Assembly: GCA_947505205.1 (NCBI GenBank)
Contig: CANNKD010000010.1
Coordinates: 1 to 35,894, forward strand
Direction: 5' to 3'
Length of the DNA: 35,894 nt
From: Bacteroidota bacterium
GTDB taxonomy: Bacteria; Bacteroidota; Bacteroidia; Bacteroidales; F082
The notes beneath the pieces are model-generated. The model saw only the letters and a list, made by a program, of their open reading frames with translations, had not been told where the DNA came from and did no database searches. This document shows positions 10,472 through 35,894 of this stretch, piece after piece (within the stretch, counting starts at the first letter, position 1; each line of letters begins with the position of its first letter). The translations under genes and the position numbers were made by a program.

Positions 10472-12331
10472 ATGTTAAAGAGATTTTTTTTCATCTTGAT
10501 TGTTGGGCTGTTTTTTTCGTGTGATAAAAAGGAAAAAACTGATATCTCTATCATTCCAAGGCCAGAGAAATATTTGGTTTCAGAAAATGGAACCATCAAA
10601 TTAAACAATGAAACGCGCATCATTTATGAAGATCCGAATCCTGCATTGCGGTTTCTTGCCGAGGATTTAGCAAATCAAATGAAGGCCAGAATCAATTTAC
10701 ATCCGGCGGTGATTTCGCTAAGTGAAGCCAAATCTATCGGGAATGACATTACTCTATCAGTAAACCTGGCTGATTCAGCGTATGGAAATGAAGGTTATGT
10801 GATAAATCACAATGGATTTAAGTTTGTGAGTATTCAGGCGAACAGCACGAAAGGTGTGTTTTATGGAGTACAATCACTTTTACAACTACTTCCAATTCAG
10901 GAGATTAAAACAGAAATTGTTGAATTGCCGGCAATAACTATAAACGACAATCCTCGTTTTGAATATCGTGGAATGCATCTCGATGTGAGCAGGCATTTCT
11001 TTCCTGTAGCTTTCATTAAACAATATATCGATTTAATGGCGATGTATAAATTCAATACTTTTCATTGGCATCTTACCGATGATCAGGGTTGGAGAATTGA
11101 GATCAAAAAATATCCAAAGCTGACGCAAATTGGTTCAATACGTGCCAAAACCATGATTGGGAAGGATTTTGGAGAGAACCAAAAATTCGATAATACACCT
11201 TATGGCGGATTTTATACACAAGATGACATTCGTGAAATAGTCGAATACGCCTCACAAAAAAATATTACCATCATACCTGAAATAGAAATGCCAGGCCATT
11301 CATTGGCTGCCCTGACAGCCTATCCTGAAATGGGTTGCTCTGGTGGACCATATGAGGTTGGTGAAAGTTGGGGTGTTTTTGAGGATGTGTATTGTGCTAA
11401 AGATCAAACTTTTACATTTATTGAAGATATTCTTACAGAGGTCATTGATGTGTTTCCGGGAACATATATTCATATTGGTGGTGATGAAGTGCCGAAAACG
11501 CGGTGGAAAAATTGTCCTGCATGCCAGAAACGCATGAAAACAGAAGGTTTAAAAACCGAAGAGGAACTCCAAAGCTATTTTATTGGCCGGATTGAGAAAT
11601 TTCTTGTTTCACACAACCGCCGGTTAATTGGCTGGGACGAAATTTTAGAAGGCGGTCTGCCACCCGAAGCAACGGTTATGTCGTGGCGCGGAACAGAGGG
11701 CGGAATAGCTGCTGCAAAAATGGGACATAATGTAATTATGACACCGGGAAATAAGTGCTATTTTGATCATTACCAGGGAAATACAGAAAACGAACCACTT
11801 GCAATCGGGGGTTTGACAAAAGTTTCGGAGGTGTATGCTTATGAGCCCATTCCTGAAGAATTAAATGCTGATCAGGCAAAGCATATACTTGGTGCACAAG
11901 CAAATGTTTGGACAGAATATTTGCCTAATCCTGTGAATGTTACATATATGGTACTTCCAAGAATGGCAGCGCTTGCCGAGGTTGTTTGGTCGCCAAAAGA
12001 AAAACGTGATTGGAAAATATTTTATGCTAAACTGAATTATCATTTCGATTTGTATAAATGGATGAAGCTCAATTATTGTCAAAGTGTTAATAATTTGTAT
12101 TTCAGGGTTATGCAGAATGAAAATAAACAAAAAAGATTGAATATTGAATCCGAAATCCCGGATGCTGTTATCCATTTTACATTGAACGATAGTATTCCAA
12201 CAAACGAGTCAAAAATTTGGGTGAAAAACATGAATTTGGAAGAAATTGAAAAAATAAATGCGGCTCAATTTGTGAATGGAAAGCAAATTGGGAAAGTGTT
12301 TTCAAAGAATTTTGTTATTGATAAACTGTAA
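10472..12331 (+). CDS. Beta-N-acetylhexosaminidase, GH20, lipoprotein
   Basis: This 619-residue protein has a lipoprotein signal (VGLFFSC, Cys17). An N-terminal GH20b-type alpha/beta domain (about 24-155) is followed by the GH20 barrel from NPRFEYRGMHLDVSRHFF. FHWHLTDDQGWRIEI, IIPEIEMPGHSLAAL and HIGGDEVPKTRW are family hallmarks. Asp338-Glu339 is the catalytic pair for substrate-assisted hydrolysis, and WRGTEGGIAAA and QANVWTEY complete the active site. The C-terminus (VIHFTLNDSIPTNESKIW) is a shortened hexosaminidase C-terminal sandwich. It removes terminal beta-GlcNAc or GalNAc, here plausibly splitting the chitobiose core of N-glycans in the periplasm or at the surface. It lies 83 bp after the glycosylasparaginase and 5 bp before the GH92 gene, almost certainly in one operon with the latter. 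Confidence 0.95.
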   Translation: MLKRFFFILIVGLFFSCDKKEKTDISIIPRPEKYLVSENGTIKLNNETRIIYEDPNPALRFLAEDLANQMKARINLHPAVISLSEAKSIGNDITLSVNLADSAYGNEGYVINHNGFKFVSIQANSTKGVFYGVQSLLQLLPIQEIKTEIVELPAITINDNPRFEYRGMHLDVSRHFFPVAFIKQYIDLMAMYKFNTFHWHLTDDQGWRIEIKKYPKLTQIGSIRAKTMIGKDFGENQKFDNTPYGGFYTQDDIREIVEYASQKNITIIPEIEMPGHSLAALTAYPEMGCSGGPYEVGESWGVFEDVYCAKDQTFTFIEDILTEVIDVFPGTYIHIGGDEVPKTRWKNCPACQKRMKTEGLKTEEELQSYFIGRIEKFLVSHNRRLIGWDEILEGGLPPEATVMSWRGTEGGIAAAKMGHNVIMTPGNKCYFDHYQGNTENEPLAIGGLTKVSEVYAYEPIPEELNADQAKHILGAQANVWTEYLPNPVNVTYMVLPRMAALAEVVWSPKEKRDWKIFYAKLNYHFDLYKWMKLNYCQSVNNLYFRVMQNENKQKRLNIESEIPDAVIHFTLNDSIPTNESKIWVKNMNLEEIEKINAAQFVNGKQIGKVFSKNFVIDKL

Positions 12332-12336
12332 GTTAT

Positions 12337-15297
12337 ATGAGAAAACTATCAGAATATGCCTTTGCTATATTGTTAGGATTTAGCCTGTTACATGTTTCCT
12401 GTCAGCGCAAAAATTCGGCTGTTGATTACGTAAATCCTTTTATCGGAACCGATGGACATGGGCATACATTTCCGGGTGCTACCCTGCCTTTCGGAATGGT
12501 ACAATTGAGTCCTGATACGCGGAAAGATTCGTGGGATGGCTGTTCAGGCTATCATTATTCTGACCAGCAAATCCTTGGTTTCAGCCATACACATTTAAGC
12601 GGCACAGGTGTTGGCGATTATGGCGATGTTCGTTTGATGCCAACCATCGGAAAACTTAAATTAGATGCCGGGGATGACCAGAAAGATGGCTATCGTTCAG
12701 GCTTCAGTCACTCGGAGGAAGAGGCTGTTCCCGGTTATTATTCAGTTAAACTTTCTGATTATCAGGTAAAAGTAGAGTTGACAGCAACCGAACATGCCGG
12801 GTTTCATCGCTATTCTTTTCCTAAATCAAAACAAGCCCATATTGTGATTGATTTGTTTGAAAGTGTAGTTTCTGAACGTATTTTGGCTTCCGAAATACAT
12901 TTTCTGAATGATTCTGTGGTTTGTGGTTTCCGCCGCACAAAAGGCTGGGCAAATGATCAACATTGTTATTTTTATGCAGTTTTCTCGAAGCCTTTTTCAT
13001 CTTTTGGAATTCGGGTTGATGGGGATGAAAAAGGACAGGCGCGTAGTGCTGCAGGAATAAATCTTATTGCCTGGACTGATTTTGAGACAGCTCAAAATGA
13101 ACAAATTATGGTGAAAGTCGGGATTTCAGCGGTTGATATCGAGGGAGCTAAACAAAATTTATCGAGTGAAACTCCTGGTTGGGACTTTGATAAAGTTAGA
13201 AAAGATGCCCTGAAAAAATGGAATGATGAGCTTCAAAGGATTGAAGTGAAAGACGAAAATCAGGTAAATAAAACAATTTTTTACACAGCCATGTATCACA
13301 CCTTGATTGCGCCCAACGTTTTTAGTGATGTTGATGGCAGGTATCGCGGTCATGATAAACAGGTTCATCAAGATACTGTAAATAAGCATTATACAGTTTT
13401 TTCACTTTGGGATACTTTTCGTGCTTTGCATCCATTTTTTACGATTATTGAGCGTGAACGAACCGGATCTTTTGTACAAACTATGCTTGATATGGCGGAA
13501 CAAGGTGGATTACTTCCTGTTTGGGAACTGGCTGGAAATGAGACTGGTTGTATGATTGGCTATCACGCTGTCCCGGTTATTGCCGATGCCTGGATAAACG
13601 ATATTCGGAGTTTTGATGGGAATAAAGCATTGAAATACATGCAATTAAGTGCCGATCAGAATCATTTGGGATTAGAATGGTATAAGAAATTAGGATATAT
13701 TCCTGCCGACAAAGAAAGTGAATCCGTTTCAAAAACGCTCGAATATGCCTATGACGATTGGTGTATTGCAAAAATGGCTGAAAGCCTGAAACAAGATTCT
13801 GTTATGAAAGTTTTTTCAAAAAGAGCTGAGTCGTATAAAAATCTGTTCGATCCCACAACAAAATTCTTCCGTGGCAGGCAAAATGGTGGATTTATTTCTC
13901 CATTTGATCCAACACAGGTTAATTTCATGCTCACTGAAGCAAATTCCTGGCAGTACAATTTCTTTGTTCCGCAGGATATTCAAACACATATTCAACTGAT
14001 TGGCGGTGATCTGGCTTATGAGAAAATGCTTGATCAACTTTTTTCTGCTCCATCCGAATTAAATGGTCGTCAGCAAGCTGATATCACTGGTTTAATTGGG
14101 CAGTATGCCCACGGAAATGAGCCAAGTCACAATATGGCTTATTTGTATAATTTCGTTCAGAAACCAGCTAAAACACAGGTTTTTGTGCGAAAAATAATGG
14201 ATGAAATGTATACGGATAAACCGGATGGTTTGTGTGGGAACGAGGATTGCGGACAAATGTCGGCCTGGTATGTGATGAGTGCGATGGGATTTTATCCGGT
14301 TACGCCGGCATCGTCTATTTACGTTTTAGGTTGTCCACGATTCAAAGAGATGACGATAAATCTTGAGAATAAGAAGAAATTTAGCATTCAAGCTGATCAT
14401 TTAAACTCCGAAAATCGGTTTGTCAAATCAGTCAGGCTTAATGGAAAACCTTATTTGAAATCGTTTATTGATGCAAAAGATATCCAATCGGGTGGCGAAC
14501 TTATATTTGAAATGGATACGGTTGCATCAACTTTATTTGGGATCGGAAAAGGCAATTATCCTGTTCAATATATTGAAAATGAATCACTTATACCGGTTCC
14601 TTCTATTCATTCCGATGGAAAAACATTTACTGAAACCTTGACGATTACGATGGGACATATCGATTCAACGGTGGTGATAGCCTACACTACAAATGGAAAA
14701 GAGCCAACGCTTTCGTCGAAACATTACGAATCGCCAATTATCATTAACCGCACAACCAATTTAAAAGTGAAAGCCTATAAGTTTTCGCATAGTAGTGAAA
14801 CGATTGAAGCAGATTTTTTTAAAATTGCCAGCGGCAGAACCATCACACTTTCGAATGAATATAATCCGCAATACCACGCCGGTGGCGATAATGCCTTAAT
14901 TGATCACCTGCGTGGCACAAGCGATTTCAGAACTGGCGCCTGGCAAGGATATTATGGCGTCGATTTGGTTGCAGTGGTCGATCTCGGAAATCAGCAGTTG
15001 GTAAAAAAACTCGAAATTGGATTTTTACAAGATCAGAATTCCTGGATTTTTATGCCGCTATATGTTGAATTTCAAATTTCTCTGGATGGAATCAATTATG
15101 AATCTTTGGGAAAAATTTACAACACTGTCTCAGATAAGGAAAATGGTGGTTTCATAAATATATTTGCCAGAAAACTTGATAATCAAATTGTTAGATATGT
15201 GAAGGTAATCGGTTTAAATCGTGGAGATTGCCCTGATTGGCATGTGGGGAAAGGTGAGCCTGCCTGGATTTTTGCTGATGAAATTGAAATTGAATAA
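12337..15297 (+). CDS. Alpha-mannosidase, GH92, lipoprotein with C-terminal hexosaminidase-like and F5/8C domains
   Basis: This 986-residue protein has a lipoprotein signal (LLHVSC, Cys22). The GH92 region (about 30-740) opens with VDYVNPFIGTDGHGHTFPG and includes GCSGYHYSDQQILGFSHTHL, LWDTFRALHPFF, TEANSWQYNFFVPQD, GNEPSHNMAYLYNF and GNEDCGQMSAWYVMSAMGF, all typical of these calcium-dependent inverting exo-alpha-mannosidases. Glu534 in TEANSWQY is the likely general acid; this is from family memory, not an alignment. The protein is about 240 residues longer than a bare GH92. Residues about 775-830 (IAYTTNGKEPTLSSKHY) match the C-terminal sandwich usually seen on hexosaminidases, and about 832-986 look like an F5/8 type C (discoidin) carbohydrate-binding domain. 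It probably trims alpha-mannose from high-mannose N-glycans before GH2 and GH20 act. Linkage preference cannot be read. Confidence 0.95.
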   Translation: MRKLSEYAFAILLGFSLLHVSCQRKNSAVDYVNPFIGTDGHGHTFPGATLPFGMVQLSPDTRKDSWDGCSGYHYSDQQILGFSHTHLSGTGVGDYGDVRLMPTIGKLKLDAGDDQKDGYRSGFSHSEEEAVPGYYSVKLSDYQVKVELTATEHAGFHRYSFPKSKQAHIVIDLFESVVSERILASEIHFLNDSVVCGFRRTKGWANDQHCYFYAVFSKPFSSFGIRVDGDEKGQARSAAGINLIAWTDFETAQNEQIMVKVGISAVDIEGAKQNLSSETPGWDFDKVRKDALKKWNDELQRIEVKDENQVNKTIFYTAMYHTLIAPNVFSDVDGRYRGHDKQVHQDTVNKHYTVFSLWDTFRALHPFFTIIERERTGSFVQTMLDMAEQGGLLPVWELAGNETGCMIGYHAVPVIADAWINDIRSFDGNKALKYMQLSADQNHLGLEWYKKLGYIPADKESESVSKTLEYAYDDWCIAKMAESLKQDSVMKVFSKRAESYKNLFDPTTKFFRGRQNGGFISPFDPTQVNFMLTEANSWQYNFFVPQDIQTHIQLIGGDLAYEKMLDQLFSAPSELNGRQQADITGLIGQYAHGNEPSHNMAYLYNFVQKPAKTQVFVRKIMDEMYTDKPDGLCGNEDCGQMSAWYVMSAMGFYPVTPASSIYVLGCPRFKEMTINLENKKKFSIQADHLNSENRFVKSVRLNGKPYLKSFIDAKDIQSGGELIFEMDTVASTLFGIGKGNYPVQYIENESLIPVPSIHSDGKTFTETLTITMGHIDSTVVIAYTTNGKEPTLSSKHYESPIIINRTTNLKVKAYKFSHSSETIEADFFKIASGRTITLSNEYNPQYHAGGDNALIDHLRGTSDFRTGAWQGYYGVDLVAVVDLGNQQLVKKLEIGFLQDQNSWIFMPLYVEFQISLDGINYESLGKIYNTVSDKENGGFINIFARKLDNQIVRYVKVIGLNRGDCPDWHVGKGEPAWIFADEIEIE

Positions 15298-30565: not shown

Positions 30566-30862
30566 TCATAAAAATTGTAGGATACTATTCAAATCTTGTC
30601 TTCCAACAATTGCCATTATCTCAACTACTCCATTGTTTAGTCTGTAAAATATACTATCAGACCCGCAAACACAACGTCTGTATCCTGTTTTTATATAATC
30701 AACTGATTCAAATGAAAATGGTCGTTGGGCTATCATGTCAAAATACTCAAAAAATGAATCAAAGTATTTATCAGCTTGAGTCACTCCAAACTTTTCGATG
30801 CCGTAATGATGAGTCCGTATCAAGTCTTCCTTAGCTTCATTACTTAATCTATATCTGACCAT
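30566..30862 (-). CDS. parE: ParE/RelE-superfamily toxin
   Basis: This 98-residue protein has a ParE-type profile. It opens MVRYRLSNEAKEDLIRTHHYGIEKFG, like the first helix pair of plasmid ParE toxins. TGYRRCVCGSDSIFYRL resembles the conserved G-x-R-x-x-x-x-x-x-I-x-Y-R core, and VVEIMAIVGRQDL is the final strand. ParE toxins act on DNA gyrase; others in the superfamily cut mRNA on ribosomes, and the sequence here favours ParE. Its start overlaps the end of the antitoxin gene by 14 bp, the usual coupled arrangement. The frame on the opposite strand (30484-30834) is a shadow. Confidence 0.88.
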   Translation of the reverse strand: MVRYRLSNEAKEDLIRTHHYGIEKFGVTQADKYFDSFFEYFDMIAQRPFSFESVDYIKTGYRRCVCGSDSIFYRLNNGVVEIMAIVGRQDLNSILQFL

Positions 30863-31094
30863 TAAGTAATGACTTTGAATGTTTTAAAATTAGTTCTTTA
30901 GTACCATCAGTAAATCCACTACTTTCAGATTTATCTAATTTAGCCCTAATAAAATCAACCTGAACTTGCTGCTTTCTAGCCTGTCTAATTAAATCATTAA
31001 TTAGTTCACTTTTACTAGTGTATTCTTCATTATTCACTTGTACTTTTAACCATTCTTCATTTGGTTTTGTGAACGATATACTTTGTCTTGCCAT
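30849..31094 (-). CDS. parD: ParD-type ribbon-helix-helix antitoxin
   Basis: This 81-residue protein has an N-terminal strand MARQSISFTKPNEEWL typical of ribbon-helix-helix repressors, followed by VNNEEYTSKSELINDLIRQAR, which matches the ParD dimerisation helix. The C-terminal tail would wrap the toxin. It neutralises ParE and should repress its own operon. A full consensus promoter and a palindrome lie directly upstream, and the toxin gene overlaps its end. This is a complete two-gene module. Confidence 0.9.
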   Translation of the reverse strand: MARQSISFTKPNEEWLKVQVNNEEYTSKSELINDLIRQARKQQVQVDFIRAKLDKSESSGFTDGTKELILKHSKSLLNGQI

Positions 31095-32175: not shown

Positions 32176-32766
32176 ATCAGAAAATTTAGGTTCAAAGCGC
32201 ACTTAGAGTTGTACAGTTTTTCCGTATTTATTTTTCCAGTTCAAAGATATTTAATGTTTTCGTAGAATTTAATTAAATCATTGATTTTTAGCAGCCGATC
32301 AAACAAAAACCCGGGTTACTTTAAGAGGCAGGGATTTTTTTATCATTAGTTGAATCTTTCAACTTGGCGTCAGCGTAACATATGGGCTGTGTGTGCTTGC
32401 GGTGGCAGGTGATACTTCGGTTTCTCGCTGCCTCACGATCGTATTCTTCGAAGGTCATTGCGCATTTCTGGTTAATAATATACTCTGAGTTTAGACTAAA
32501 TGTGTAATTTATGCTTTTCATACACTTAATCCAACGCTTTATCTTAACCTAAACTTCATCATTTGGTAATATTAACTTCATACTGGTAAATTACTTTTGC
32601 AATATAATTTAAATGCATCCTTGAGTAAAGTCATACAAGTTCGGGTTAGAAAAATTTATTCCGTTAATCATTTTTCTGGCTGTCTTGTTATTGAAAATCA
32701 ATATCTTCCATATAAGTTGGTTCGTCTTAGAAACCGCATCTCAGTAATTCAAATCAAACTTTTATA
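32176..32766. other. 591-bp gene-free stretch upstream of the metallophosphoesterase
   Basis: It contains the minus-strand -7 box for the PH-like protein gene (TATCTTTG, 32242-32249), a 10-bp palindrome AACCCGGGTT at 32308-32317, and a GC-richer patch at about 32365-32440. A 66-codon minus-strand frame at 32321-32521 shows no family signature and is not called. A TACTTTTG -7 box at 32592-32599 (plus) could serve the downstream operon, but the nearest TTTG is 26 bp away, outside the usual range. Confidence 0.5.
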
Positions 32767-33624
32767 ATGAAAGACCATCCAAAAAGAAGGAAGATTGAAG
32801 TTTTAATTATTTCCGATGTTCATCTGGGAACATACGGTTGCCAAAGTAAAGCGCTTATTAATTATCTGGAAAGTATTAAGCCAAAAACCGTTGTGTTAAA
32901 CGGAGATATTATCGATATGTGGCAGTTTAGCAAACGCTTCTGGCCAAAAAGTCATATGCGCATTGTGCATCAGATTATTAAATGGGCAAGTCAGGGAGTA
33001 AAAGTTTATTATATCGCAGGCAATCACGACGAAATGCTACGTCGTTTTACAGGTTTCAAGATGGGTTCGCTCATGATTGAAAACAAACTTTTACTTGAAC
33101 TGGACGGTAAAAAAACATGGATTTTCCATGGCGATGTATTCGATGTCACCATGCAACATTCAAAATGGCTCACGCGTCTTGGTTCACATGGCTACGACCT
33201 GTTAATACTCATCAATGCTTTTGTTAACTGGGTTTCGGAGCTTTTTGGGAAAGGGAAAATTTCATTATCGAAAAACATCAAAAACGGCGTGAAGCAGGCT
33301 ATGAAATTTATCAATGATTTTGAAAAAACAGCCGCTGAAATTGCCATTGCCAATGGTTACGATTATGTTATATGCGGCCATATCCATCATCCGGAGATTA
33401 AAACCATACAAACTGAGAAAGGTAAGGTGGAGTATATGAACTCGGGCGACTGGATTGAAAACCTTACCGCTCTTGAATACAATGACAATGTTTGGAGTTT
33501 GTATCGTTACAACGAAAACGACTTTAGCGAAAAGCAACACGATCATGAAGATGAGTTATCGACAATGAGTACCGAGAAAATCTTCGATCAAATGCTCACT
33601 GAATTTATGATTATCCAAAAATAA
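32767..33624 (+). CDS. LpxH-like calcineurin-type metallophosphoesterase
   Basis: This 285-residue cytoplasmic or membrane-associated phosphoesterase has the full di-metal motif set: SDVHLG (Asp17, His19), NGDIIDMWQ, AGNHDE, FHGDVFD and GHIHHPEI. The NGDIIDMW and GNHDEMLRRF stretches, and the hydrophobic helical insertion at about residues 125-160, recall UDP-2,3-diacylglucosamine hydrolase (LpxH) and the related membrane-active group. In its context it might instead process another lipid- or sugar-linked pyrophosphate. It leads a plus-strand operon, with the glycosyltransferase 13 bp downstream. Since LpxH paralogues are common in Bacteroidota, the gene symbol is withheld. Confidence 0.85.
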   Translation: MKDHPKRRKIEVLIISDVHLGTYGCQSKALINYLESIKPKTVVLNGDIIDMWQFSKRFWPKSHMRIVHQIIKWASQGVKVYYIAGNHDEMLRRFTGFKMGSLMIENKLLLELDGKKTWIFHGDVFDVTMQHSKWLTRLGSHGYDLLILINAFVNWVSELFGKGKISLSKNIKNGVKQAMKFINDFEKTAAEIAIANGYDYVICGHIHHPEIKTIQTEKGKVEYMNSGDWIENLTALEYNDNVWSLYRYNENDFSEKQHDHEDELSTMSTEKIFDQMLTEFMIIQK

Positions 33625-33637
33625 AAAAACACGATCC

Positions 33638-34684
33638 ATGAAAATATTATATGGGATACAAAGTACTGGAAATGGTCATATTACGCGTGCCATCGAATTG
33701 ATTCCGTATTTAATGGAATGGGGTGATTTAGATGTGCTCTTGAGCGGAAGCCAGTCGGATATTGAAATGCCATTTAAGGTAAAATATCGCTTTAATGGCT
33801 TGTCGTTTGTTTTTGGAAAGCAAGGTGGCGTTGATGTTTGGAACACCTATTGGAACATGAAGACCATGAAACTCATGAAGGAAATCAATAATTTACCTAT
33901 CGAGAAATACGATTTGATTATCAGCGATTTTGAACCAGTTACAGCATGGGCTTCTTTAAAAGCCGGAAGGGTTTGTGTTGGTTTGAGTAATCAGATGGCA
34001 AGTATGCATCCATTAGCGCCTTCACCTAAAAAAATAGATCTACTTGGTAAACTTATTCTTTCGCAATATGCACCCTGCAGCATTGCTTATGGATTTCATT
34101 TCAAATCACTCGACCAGCATATTTTCACACCCATTATTCGTAAGGAAATCAGGGAATTAACGCCAAGTAATGAAGGTCATTATACTGTTTATCTTCCAGC
34201 TTATTCCGATGAAAAAATCATTAAAAGCCTTTCTCAGTTTGAAAAGATCAGATGGGAAGTTTTCTCTAAACACAACAAAAAAAAATTCAAAGAGAAGAAT
34301 ATTTCTATTCAACCAATTAATAATGGACAGTTTGTGAAGAGTCTTGTTTCGTGTGAAGGTGTGTTGTGTAATGCAGGATTTGGCACAACGAGCGAGGCGT
34401 TGTTCTTGCAAAAGAAGTTGCTGGTGATACCCATGAAAAACCAGTATGAGCAACATTGCAACGCTGCCATGTTAAAATCGATGGGCGTGCATGTAATTAA
34501 AAAACTTGGTGAAAAAAATCATGAGAAAATTGGAAATTGGCTTTCAGAAAACAATACTGTGCAAGTCGATTATCCGGATAATGCGCGTGAAATAGTTGAT
34601 TTAATTGTGCGTCATCATGGGTTTAAACCAAAAAAAACAGCCATTCCTGAAACTATTACAACCAACCTGTTTCAAAACTTATGA
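33638..34684 (+). CDS. GT28-like glycosyltransferase (Glyco_trans_1_3 / MJ1255 type)
   Basis: This 348-residue protein has the two-Rossmann GT-B layout. The N-terminal YGIQSTGNGHITRAIELIPY is the glycine-rich loop with His typical of GT28/MurG-like and UDP-glucuronosyltransferase-like enzymes. YDLIISDFEPVTAWAS is the acceptor-side segment. The C-terminal VLCNAGFGTTSEALFLQKK and IPMKNQYEQHCNAAMLKSMG form the nucleotide-sugar site. There is no signal peptide or membrane helix, so it is cytoplasmic or peripheral. Related enzymes glycosylate lipids (MurG, MGDG synthase) or polyprenyl carriers. Its stop overlaps the start of the GH1 gene (ATGA), so the two are translationally coupled. Donor and acceptor are unknown. 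Confidence 0.85.
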   Translation: MKILYGIQSTGNGHITRAIELIPYLMEWGDLDVLLSGSQSDIEMPFKVKYRFNGLSFVFGKQGGVDVWNTYWNMKTMKLMKEINNLPIEKYDLIISDFEPVTAWASLKAGRVCVGLSNQMASMHPLAPSPKKIDLLGKLILSQYAPCSIAYGFHFKSLDQHIFTPIIRKEIRELTPSNEGHYTVYLPAYSDEKIIKSLSQFEKIRWEVFSKHNKKKFKEKNISIQPINNGQFVKSLVSCEGVLCNAGFGTTSEALFLQKKLLVIPMKNQYEQHCNAAMLKSMGVHVIKKLGEKNHEKIGNWLSENNTVQVDYPDNAREIVDLIVRHHGFKPKKTAIPETITTNLFQNL

Positions 34685-35894
34685 GTCAGCATTTTGTAAA
34701 GGATACAAAACCAATTATTTGCAGCGTTATCGATTTTAAACCGGATTTTGTTTGGGGTGTTTCAACCTCGGCACTGCAAACGGAAGGAGCCTTTGATATT
34801 GATGGAAAAGAATCTTCTATTTGGGACGCATTTGCAACGAAAAAAAATGTTATCTTTAACAATGATTCCCCTTCTGTAGCTTGCGATTTCTATCACCGTT
34901 TCGAAGAAGACATCAACATAATCAAGCAATTAGGAATACCAAATTTCAGGTTTTCGTTGTCATGGCCAAGGATACTTCCCAAGGGCACAGGCATCATCAA
35001 TCAGGCAGGTATTGACTTTTACCATCGTGTAATTGATCATTGTCTGAAAAGTGGTATCGAACCCTGGATTACTATTTATCATTGGGATTTGCCGCTCGAA
35101 CTCGAAAAAAACGGAGGATGGACGAACAGAGAAATTCTTCATTGGTTTGAGGAATTTGTGCAGGTTTGCATTACATCCTTCGGTTCGAAAGTGAAAAACT
35201 GGATGATTTTGAACGAACCCATTGTTTTCACTGGAGCCGGCTATTTTGTGGGCATGCATGCTCCCGGAAAAAAAGGTATTTCCAATTTTCTGGCAGCTTT
35301 GCATCATGCCAATCTCTGTCAGGGAATCGGATTACGAACTATCAAACAGCATTATCCGAATGCACGGGTCGGAACCACATTCAGCTGTTCGCATATCACC
35401 TCTTTTACTGAACGGGAAAAAGATAAGTTGGCATCAAATCGTATCCATACTTTGCTCAATAGATTGGCAATTGAGCCCTTGCTGGGTTTGGGATACCCGA
35501 TAAACGATCTTCCAACTCTCGGAAATATTAAAAAATGGATTAAACAAGGTGATGAAACTGCTATTAAGGCCGAGTTCGATTTTATTGGTATTCAGGTATA
35601 TACGCGGGAAGTTGTTACGCATAGCATGTTTATACCTTATCTCAAAGCAAAACTTGTTCCAGCCGCAAAAAGAAAGGTGTATCACACCAAAATGGGTTGG
35701 GAAATCTACCCAAAAGCTTTGCAGAACATGATCGAACATTTTGCAGCTTATGAAGCTGTAAAAGAGATATTTATTACTGAAAATGGTGCTTCATTTGCCG
35801 ATGAGGTTACCGATGGTATTGTTGATGATCAGCAACGTATTGATTATCTAAAAACCTATATTGAAAAATTGTGTAAGATAGTTAGCGAAACGCC
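34681..35894 (+). CDS. GH1 family glycosidase (3'-truncated by window edge)
   Basis: The gene begins at the ATG that overlaps the previous stop and stays open to the end of the window (404 full codons of an expected 430-460). There is no signal peptide, so it is cytoplasmic. GH1 hallmarks are FVWGVSTSALQTEGAFDIDG near the start, FRFSLSWPRILPKG, YHWDLPLELEKNGGW, then WMILNEPIVFTGAGY with acid/base Glu179, and FITENGASFADEV with nucleophile Glu367. Members hydrolyse beta-glucosides, galactosides or related bonds with retention, and some transfer sugars between lipids. Strict coupling to a glycosyltransferase suggests both act on one glycoside pool, for example synthesis and turnover of a glycolipid; that is inference. 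The substrate is not readable. Confidence 0.93.
   Translation, partial: MSQHFVKDTKPIICSVIDFKPDFVWGVSTSALQTEGAFDIDGKESSIWDAFATKKNVIFNNDSPSVACDFYHRFEEDINIIKQLGIPNFRFSLSWPRILPKGTGIINQAGIDFYHRVIDHCLKSGIEPWITIYHWDLPLELEKNGGWTNREILHWFEEFVQVCITSFGSKVKNWMILNEPIVFTGAGYFVGMHAPGKKGISNFLAALHHANLCQGIGLRTIKQHYPNARVGTTFSCSHITSFTEREKDKLASNRIHTLLNRLAIEPLLGLGYPINDLPTLGNIKKWIKQGDETAIKAEFDFIGIQVYTREVVTHSMFIPYLKAKLVPAAKRKVYHTKMGWEIYPKALQNMIEHFAAYEAVKEIFITENGASFADEVTDGIVDDQQRIDYLKTYIEKLCKIVSET

Follow-up and report, generated by a model that had tools for sequence, protein, structure and literature searches.

Several described systems couple a PlcP-type phospholipase to a glycosyltransferase or to phosphate supply. 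Passages of PMC8528852 describe an apparent operon in Pseudomonas aeruginosa consisting of PA3219 (PlcP) and PA3218 (Agt1), in which Agt1 makes monoglucosyldiacylglycerol and a plcP mutant lacks this lipid. In the part of PMC4796936 that deals with marine strains, plcP was induced by phosphorus starvation in the strains tested, and Dokdonia MED134 was among those studied. For Flavobacterium johnsoniae under phosphate depletion, Table 1 of PMC8115612 groups as 'Lipid remodelling' the genes Fjoh_0541 (a glycosyltransferase, pf04101, in the PhoBR operon) and Fjoh_4577 (PlcP); the values for both are positive and highly significant in the table text, which comes without its column heads. Here we describe a three-gene unit in a 35,894-nucleotide stretch of Bacteroidota DNA (the window), which is the entire contig CANNKD010000010.1 (C10) of assembly GCA_947505205.1 (Bacteroidales, F082; 3.49 Mb in 288 contigs). 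The last three genes before the contig end, all in the same direction, encode a phosphoesterase (PE), a glycosyltransferase (GT) and a glycosidase of family GH1. This trio is probably a phosphate-starvation operon for membrane-lipid remodelling, by which phospholipids would be swapped for glycolipids, and we hold with greater confidence that PE and GT are a phosphate-saving glycolipid pair. The genes are as follows.

32767..33624, + strand: PE, a calcineurin-like phosphoesterase, most likely a PlcP-type phospholipase C (285 amino acids; models, tree and alignment)
33638..34684, + strand: GT, a GT-B glycosyltransferase of the MJ1255/VC2487 (Glyco_trans_1_3) group with a MurG/UGT-like predicted fold (348 amino acids)
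34681..35894, + strand: GH1, a beta-glucosidase-type glycosidase with its 3' end missing (open reading frame 34681-35892, 404 codons, no stop; E179 in NEP, E367 in ENG)

Conservation of the gene order

A gap of 13 nucleotides (33625-33637) separates PE from GT, and the stop of GT overlaps the start of GH1 by four nucleotides (ATGA, 34681-34684). This confirms the coupled layout described in an earlier note, which was made from the letters of the window alone and proposed that the three genes form a unit for making and remodelling a membrane glycolipid. Tight packing is general at homologous loci, where the median gap between longest open reading frames is 3 bp for PE and GT (62 loci) and likewise 3 bp for GT and GH1 (56 loci). 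GH1 is truncated where the contig stops, at 35894, and reaches position 395 of the 453 in its profile; a search of the rest of the assembly, made without a positive control, found none of its last ~50 codons. We rejected the possibility that GH1 is an artefact of the contig end because the identical GT-GH1 junction recurs in 50 of 80 GT loci.

These 80 loci were found with an alignment of six GT proteins and are the best of at least 556 confirmed loci, and they are therefore biased to close GT relatives. By title, 79 are Bacteroidota and one is Bifidobacterium breve. The order PE, GT, GH1 is present in 42, so that the trio proves to be conserved, a positive outcome of a check which the earlier note had itself put forward, and its linkage, with generally short gaps, goes beyond chance. 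Cultured carriers of the trio include the environmental isolates Gillisia hiemivivida IC154 (L058) and Rufibacter hautae NBS58-1 (L045). Among the others, 11 have PE and GT only, seven have GT followed by GH1 with no PE upstream, 17 have GT with neither gene in place, and contig ends truncate three, including one with GT followed by GH1. Two of the 17 carry a partner in another position: L079 has PE on the opposite strand, and L060, from Flavobacterium, has GH1 just upstream of GT, a second linked arrangement. Where GT and GH1 are neighbours (51 loci), GH1 is thus directly downstream in 50 and just upstream in one. We also looked for a wider operon by clustering the 968 open reading frames of the 80 loci, which gave just four families in at least four loci: GT, PE, GH1, and a TonB-receptor-like family (recognised by eye) that is found in 11 loci with variable place and strand.

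Because the best 80 loci are close GT relatives, we extended the survey to 395 genomes sampled evenly from the phylum, the window's own genome included. GT is present in 90 of these genomes (91 loci). At 80 of the 91 loci the gene immediately before GT is PE, and at only seven is GH1 the gene immediately after it. PE and GT are therefore the core pair, and GH1 is a third member added in some lineages. In this sample PE is found in 28 of the 32 genomes that have GH1, compared with 113 of 395 overall; the comparison is uncorrected for kinship, and the PE counts are those of the best 116 PE rows (E up to 5.8e-84), weaker homologues going uncounted. Within the order of the window, 7 of 149 genomes have a GT match, the window's own among them, and PE is next to GT in four of the six others.

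Some loci depart from this pattern. Thirteen loci from Mucilaginibacter, Sphingobacterium and relatives (L023, L026, L028, L030-L033, L040, L042, L046, L052, L065 and L082), two of which are titled only Bacteroidetes bacterium or Sphingobacteriaceae, retain a close GT but have no PE or GH1 adjoining it. In Parabacteroides distasonis (L098, 2992-4913) a diverged PE, 35% identical, and a GT share a 4-bp overlap, the top model for this GT being TIGR00661 (66.7 bits, under the cut-off), and the PE-GT pair thus exists also in a gut member of the Bacteroidales. The single Bifidobacterium breve entry (L035) is a trio locus in a metagenome-assembled genome, the title or binning of which is probably wrong, since its GH1 falls among Bacteroidota sequences.

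Identity of the three enzymes

All three proteins match Pfam families, Metallophos for PE (56.6 bits), Glyco_trans_1_3 for GT (120.5 bits) and Glyco_hydro_1 for GH1 (390.4 bits, cut-off 22.6). PE is under the cut-offs of both NCBIfam equivalog models of LpxH (67.8 against 134 bits and 56.6 against 190.35 bits), whereas LpxH of Escherichia coli scores 364.3 and 388.9 bits on the same two models. In an unrooted tree of 37 rows, PE is placed with PlcP-type sequences, and four LpxH-type rows (E. coli LpxH, an Aeromonas relative, a Bacteroides relative and a fragment from the window genome, C187) split off with support of 100/99. One of the 23 loci chosen for this tree (L017) was dropped, having no usable open reading frame, and the PlcP anchor is a PA3219-like gene identified by gene order, no record named PlcP having been used. 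PE shares 38% identity (187 bits) with a gene of a P. aeruginosa plasmid record that has a glycosyltransferase gene next to it downstream and that, to judge from this gene order, would be a copy of PA3219; the value for PE and E. coli LpxH is 23% (47 bits). The C187 fragment, which ends at a contig end, is another LpxH candidate in the window genome and groups with a Bacteroides gene annotated UDP-2,3-diacylglucosamine diphosphatase.

The motif residues D17, H19, D47, N86 and H121 of PE are invariant in a 10-row alignment, and H205 and H207 are almost invariant, with one fragmentary row stopping short of both; in this family the motif residues bind metal. The best 25 fold matches of the predicted PE model (pLDDT 73.8) are LpxH entries, with TM values of ~0.5, and databases name PE homologues UDP-2,3-diacylglucosamine diphosphatase. 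We nevertheless rejected the LpxH reading on the model cut-offs and the tree placement. Judged by its sequence, PE is most likely a PlcP-type phospholipase C, and we suggest that a large group of PlcP-type proteins goes under an incorrect, though common, database name. The description of PE as LpxH-like in the earlier note thus stands for the fold but not for the subfamily. Its idea that an LpxH relative clears a phospho-intermediate finds no support, PE most likely making the acceptor lipid instead, and the link to phosphate described below had escaped it. The proposal of a membrane-glycolipid unit is itself supported, because PlcP in other bacteria supplies a glycosyltransferase with diacylglycerol and PE directly precedes GT at 80 of the 91 sampled loci.

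The best NCBIfam family of GT is MJ1255/VC2487 (TIGR00661), at 162.7 bits under a curated cut-off of 195.9, and GT is also under the Pfam cut-off for GT28-C (20.5 against 22 bits). Its predicted model (pLDDT 86.1) has a GT-B fold and is near MurG and UGT enzymes; superposition on P. aeruginosa MurG gives a Z of 20.8 over 283 aligned positions with a root-mean-square deviation of 3.7, and epimerases that share this type of fold give similar scores. We disfavour a UDP-GlcNAc 2-epimerase, since the window genome has a clear one elsewhere (C85). No significant alignment was obtained between GT and an Agt-type GT4 enzyme (the glycosyltransferase of L094). MGD1 is not among the listed fold matches of GT, which is uninformative.

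GH1 is the sole GH1 gene found in the window genome. The catalytic residues E179 and E367 are present in the window protein and in all 54 trio homologues, and the motif DNFEW in 53 of them, the exception ending before the motif. The catalytic and sugar-binding positions checked are intact and ordinary apart from position 305 and the variable residue after it. Every one of the 54 trio homologues, and 22 of the 23 unlinked proteins, has Gln at position 305 in place of the usual Asn, which is found in one outgroup row. On the beta-glucosidase model TIGR03356 the window fragment, incomplete at its 3' end, scores 434.6 bits against a cut-off of 478.5. Six trio and four unlinked proteins all exceed it (498.8 to 594.9 bits). 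Inspection by eye shows no signal peptide on the window protein or on most homologues, whose longest-reading-frame starts are partly uncertain.

In a tree of 78 GH1 proteins, which excludes rows under 380 amino acids, the label 'linked to GT' needs two changes, compared with a mean of 20.2 in 500 shuffles. Nine of the 23 unlinked genes fall outside the linked clade, the branch of which has support of 92/92 (not starred), and the 14 that nest within it look like later separations from GT. Among 39 trio loci the correlation of distances is 0.795 for GT and GH1, 0.713 for PE and GT and 0.633 for PE and GH1, species history giving part of it. In part of the phylum, GH1 and the operon are inherited together. 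Its sequence fits hydrolysis or transfer and a lipid or a soluble substrate, so it is linkage alone that argues for a lipid. We found no literature tying a GH1 gene to plcP in a search that was mostly at the level of titles and abstract beginnings. The GH1 proteins of L038 and L138 are identical, and the two genomes from which they come, Flavihumibacter soli R14 and G270, are the same or nearly so.

Upstream repeats and the link to phosphate

Downstream of a PE homologue in one genome (G232) come another glycosyltransferase gene (PF04101), to which GT is only remotely related, and then, on the opposite strand, phoR- and phoB-type genes that fall short of the curated cut-offs for PhoR and PhoB. 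Regulators resembling PhoB are encoded in the window genome, the best at 211.4 bits against a cut-off of 296.2, as is a pst gene that exceeds its own cut-off. Other bacteria have PhoB sites built of tandem 11-bp repeats, given as CTGTCATNNNNCTGTCAT in the relevant passage of PMC8528852. We scanned 66 regions upstream of PE for pairs of TAAC at spacings of 5 to 39 bp; the set includes near-copies, so that binomial figures calculated from it are too strong. Pairs 11 bp apart (TAAC-N7-TAAC) are present in 20 and pairs 22 bp apart in seven, and any other spacing is seen in four at most; in a coding control, pairs at 11 bp were found in 0 of 66. Elsewhere in the 80 loci the 11-bp spacing is unremarkable (55 pairs, range 19 to 71).

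The region upstream of PE in the window carries a degenerate form of this repeat, identified with a matrix built without the window. Its training also left out the near-copies L039 and L047.

32542..32585, + strand: degenerate tandem of four 11-bp TAAC-repeat-like units, a putative Pho-box-type operator
32592..32599, + strand: TACTTTTG, a candidate -7 element that fits the Bacteroidota consensus TAnnTTTG

Three matrix sizes were tried. With three units, 32542 is the top of 71,724 window positions on both strands and is equalled in 19 of 2000 shuffles. The tandem at 32542 is again best with four units (11 of 2000), and with two units it is not significant (300 of 2000). A matrix p of 0.05 is reached by 36 of 65 upstream regions, a count that is partly circular because the training sites are among them. 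The -7 element is a weak candidate, a strict match being present 5-60 bp downstream in only one of 19 homologous upstream regions with the repeat. The pst regions of two trio-bearing genomes carry 11-bp-spaced TAAC repeats strongly (L158, about 969-995; L161, about 3614, - strand), and by sequence these are a candidate Bacteroidota Pho box.

Proposed pathway, alternatives and described systems

We propose that PE removes the phosphate head group from membrane phospholipids, leaving diacylglycerol or possibly ceramide in the inner leaflet, and that GT would move a hexose from a nucleotide sugar onto the released lipid to give a phosphorus-free glycolipid. GH1, cytosolic and probably translated from the same message, would then act on the glycolipid. 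Most likely it would strip the sugar, so that the lipid could be recycled or its level tuned; transfer of the sugar to another glycolipid is less likely. In this scheme we infer the substrates, the sugar, the regulation of the operon and the whole role of GH1, as well as the lipid nature of the GT product. If PE and GT are such a pair, the chance that GH1 acts on the glycolipid is perhaps slightly better than even, with removal likelier than transfer. More tentatively, since we would put it at somewhat less than even, the operon may hold a writer and an editor, with a lipid-directed GH1 that undoes the glycosylation by GT or moves the sugar elsewhere, in a bacterial parallel of SFR2 in plants. 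Were this true, the phosphate-starvation lipid remodelling of Bacteroidota would be built to be reversible or extended. The linked GH1 is an unexplained addition to the known pathway, and an editing role would bear on how cells remove the substitute lipid again.

Several observations weigh against the proposal of a phosphate-controlled glycolipid operon. Phosphorus-starved Dokdonia MED134 showed aminolipids, and the passage in PMC4796936 leaves glycolipid unmentioned, which weighs against a glycolipid product in every flavobacterium. With respect to the partners, no GT match reaches the threshold used in 27 of the 113 PE genomes of the phylum sample, and PE can therefore serve without this GT. 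GH1 is rare downstream of GT in the same sample, was found at none of the six other GT loci of the window's order (~1.5 kb of flank on each side), and in all six full-length trio homologues exceeds the cut-off for ordinary beta-glucosidases. As for regulation, the window promoter has a degenerate repeat only and no exact TAAC-N7-TAAC pair. Such pairs also precede GT genes without PE (3 of 38 at 11 bp, 6 of 38 at 22 bp) and unlinked GH1 genes (3 of 23 at each spacing). Over ten whole pst loci, the 11-bp spacing (3 of 10) is not more frequent than the others. When hand-chosen stretches of eight of the ten pst loci above the cut-off were tested with the matrix, six had no clear match, including that of the window genome, whose pst promoter may fall outside the fetched stretch.

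The alternatives overlap with this proposal and with each other, so their probabilities do not sum to one. PE and GT may be a phosphate-saving pair with GH1 a plain beta-glucosidase for soluble beta-glucosides, feeding glucose for the nucleotide sugar of GT or simply sharing a promoter. The beta-glucosidase scores of all ten proteins compared, the ordinary active-site positions other than Q305 and its neighbour, and the 14 unlinked genes inside the linked clade fit this well. We consider it somewhat unlikely, however, because GH1 is directly downstream of GT in 50 of 51 neighbour loci, only one other family (TonB-receptor-like) recurs in the neighbourhoods, and GH1 has no visible signal peptide. 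Retaining GH1 enzymes can transglycosylate, and a true bacterial counterpart of SFR2, moving hexose from glycolipid to glycolipid to give di- or oligoglycosyl lipids, is within reach of the family and in keeping with the linkage and co-divergence of GT and GH1, the latter owed partly to species history. The unlinked relatives resemble ordinary glucosidases, however, and we judge this explanation unlikely.

The acceptor might instead be a sphingolipid, with PE cleaving a ceramide phospho-head group, GT making glycosylceramide and GH1 acting as a glucosylceramidase. Many Bacteroidota make sphingolipids, and in Pannonibacter a distant PE relative is followed by a gene annotated ceramide glucosyltransferase. 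That relative is only 26% identical and on a long branch, however, and no sphingolipid family is prominent in the 80 neighbourhoods, the window genome not having been searched for sphingolipid genes; we regard this as decidedly unlikely. A reading of PE as an LpxH isozyme, with the unit belonging to lipid A or surface glycan assembly, is very improbable. The fold matches and the database naming of PE homologues point that way, but PE is under both LpxH cut-offs and outside the LpxH tree group, and it is the other candidate, at C187, that groups with the annotated Bacteroides enzyme.

Two further pairs of genes were seen elsewhere in the window. A ParE-type toxin gene (42.3 bits) overlaps a ParD-like antitoxin gene (20.2 bits, cut-off 21) at 30566-31094 on the - strand, and GH20 and GH92 glycosidase genes adjoin, 5 bp apart, at 10472-15297 on the + strand, which we guess to be a glycan-degradation pair.

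Among described systems, LpxH resembles PE in fold and metal-binding motifs, but forms a separate tree group and is set apart by its model cut-offs. Plants have a GT28 synthase (MGD1) and a GH1 enzyme (SFR2) in one lipid pathway, which may be similar to the combination of a GT28-like enzyme and GH1 here; the plant genes are not in an operon, however. Fjoh_4577 and Fjoh_0541 of F. johnsoniae are the same two enzyme types by family label, and both are tabulated as responding to phosphate depletion. They are unlinked, however, and the passages of PMC8115612 concerned contain no GH1. The PlcP-Agt systems of P. aeruginosa (PA3219-PA3218), Phaeobacter and SAR11, as described in parts of PMC8528852 and PMC4796936, share with our locus a PlcP-type gene directly upstream of a glycosyltransferase gene and have an upstream Pho-type element, of which our locus has a putative one. 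In contrast, GT here is MJ1255/GT28-like with no detectable similarity to the Agt-type GT4 enzyme compared, GH1 is added in part of the group, and the phylum is different. Known PlcP-type remodelling was worked out in Proteobacteria with Agt glycosyltransferases, and the locus described here would represent its widespread counterpart in Bacteroidota, in which the glycosyltransferase is of another kind, a glycosidase is linked in part of the group, and there is a candidate Pho-type operator.

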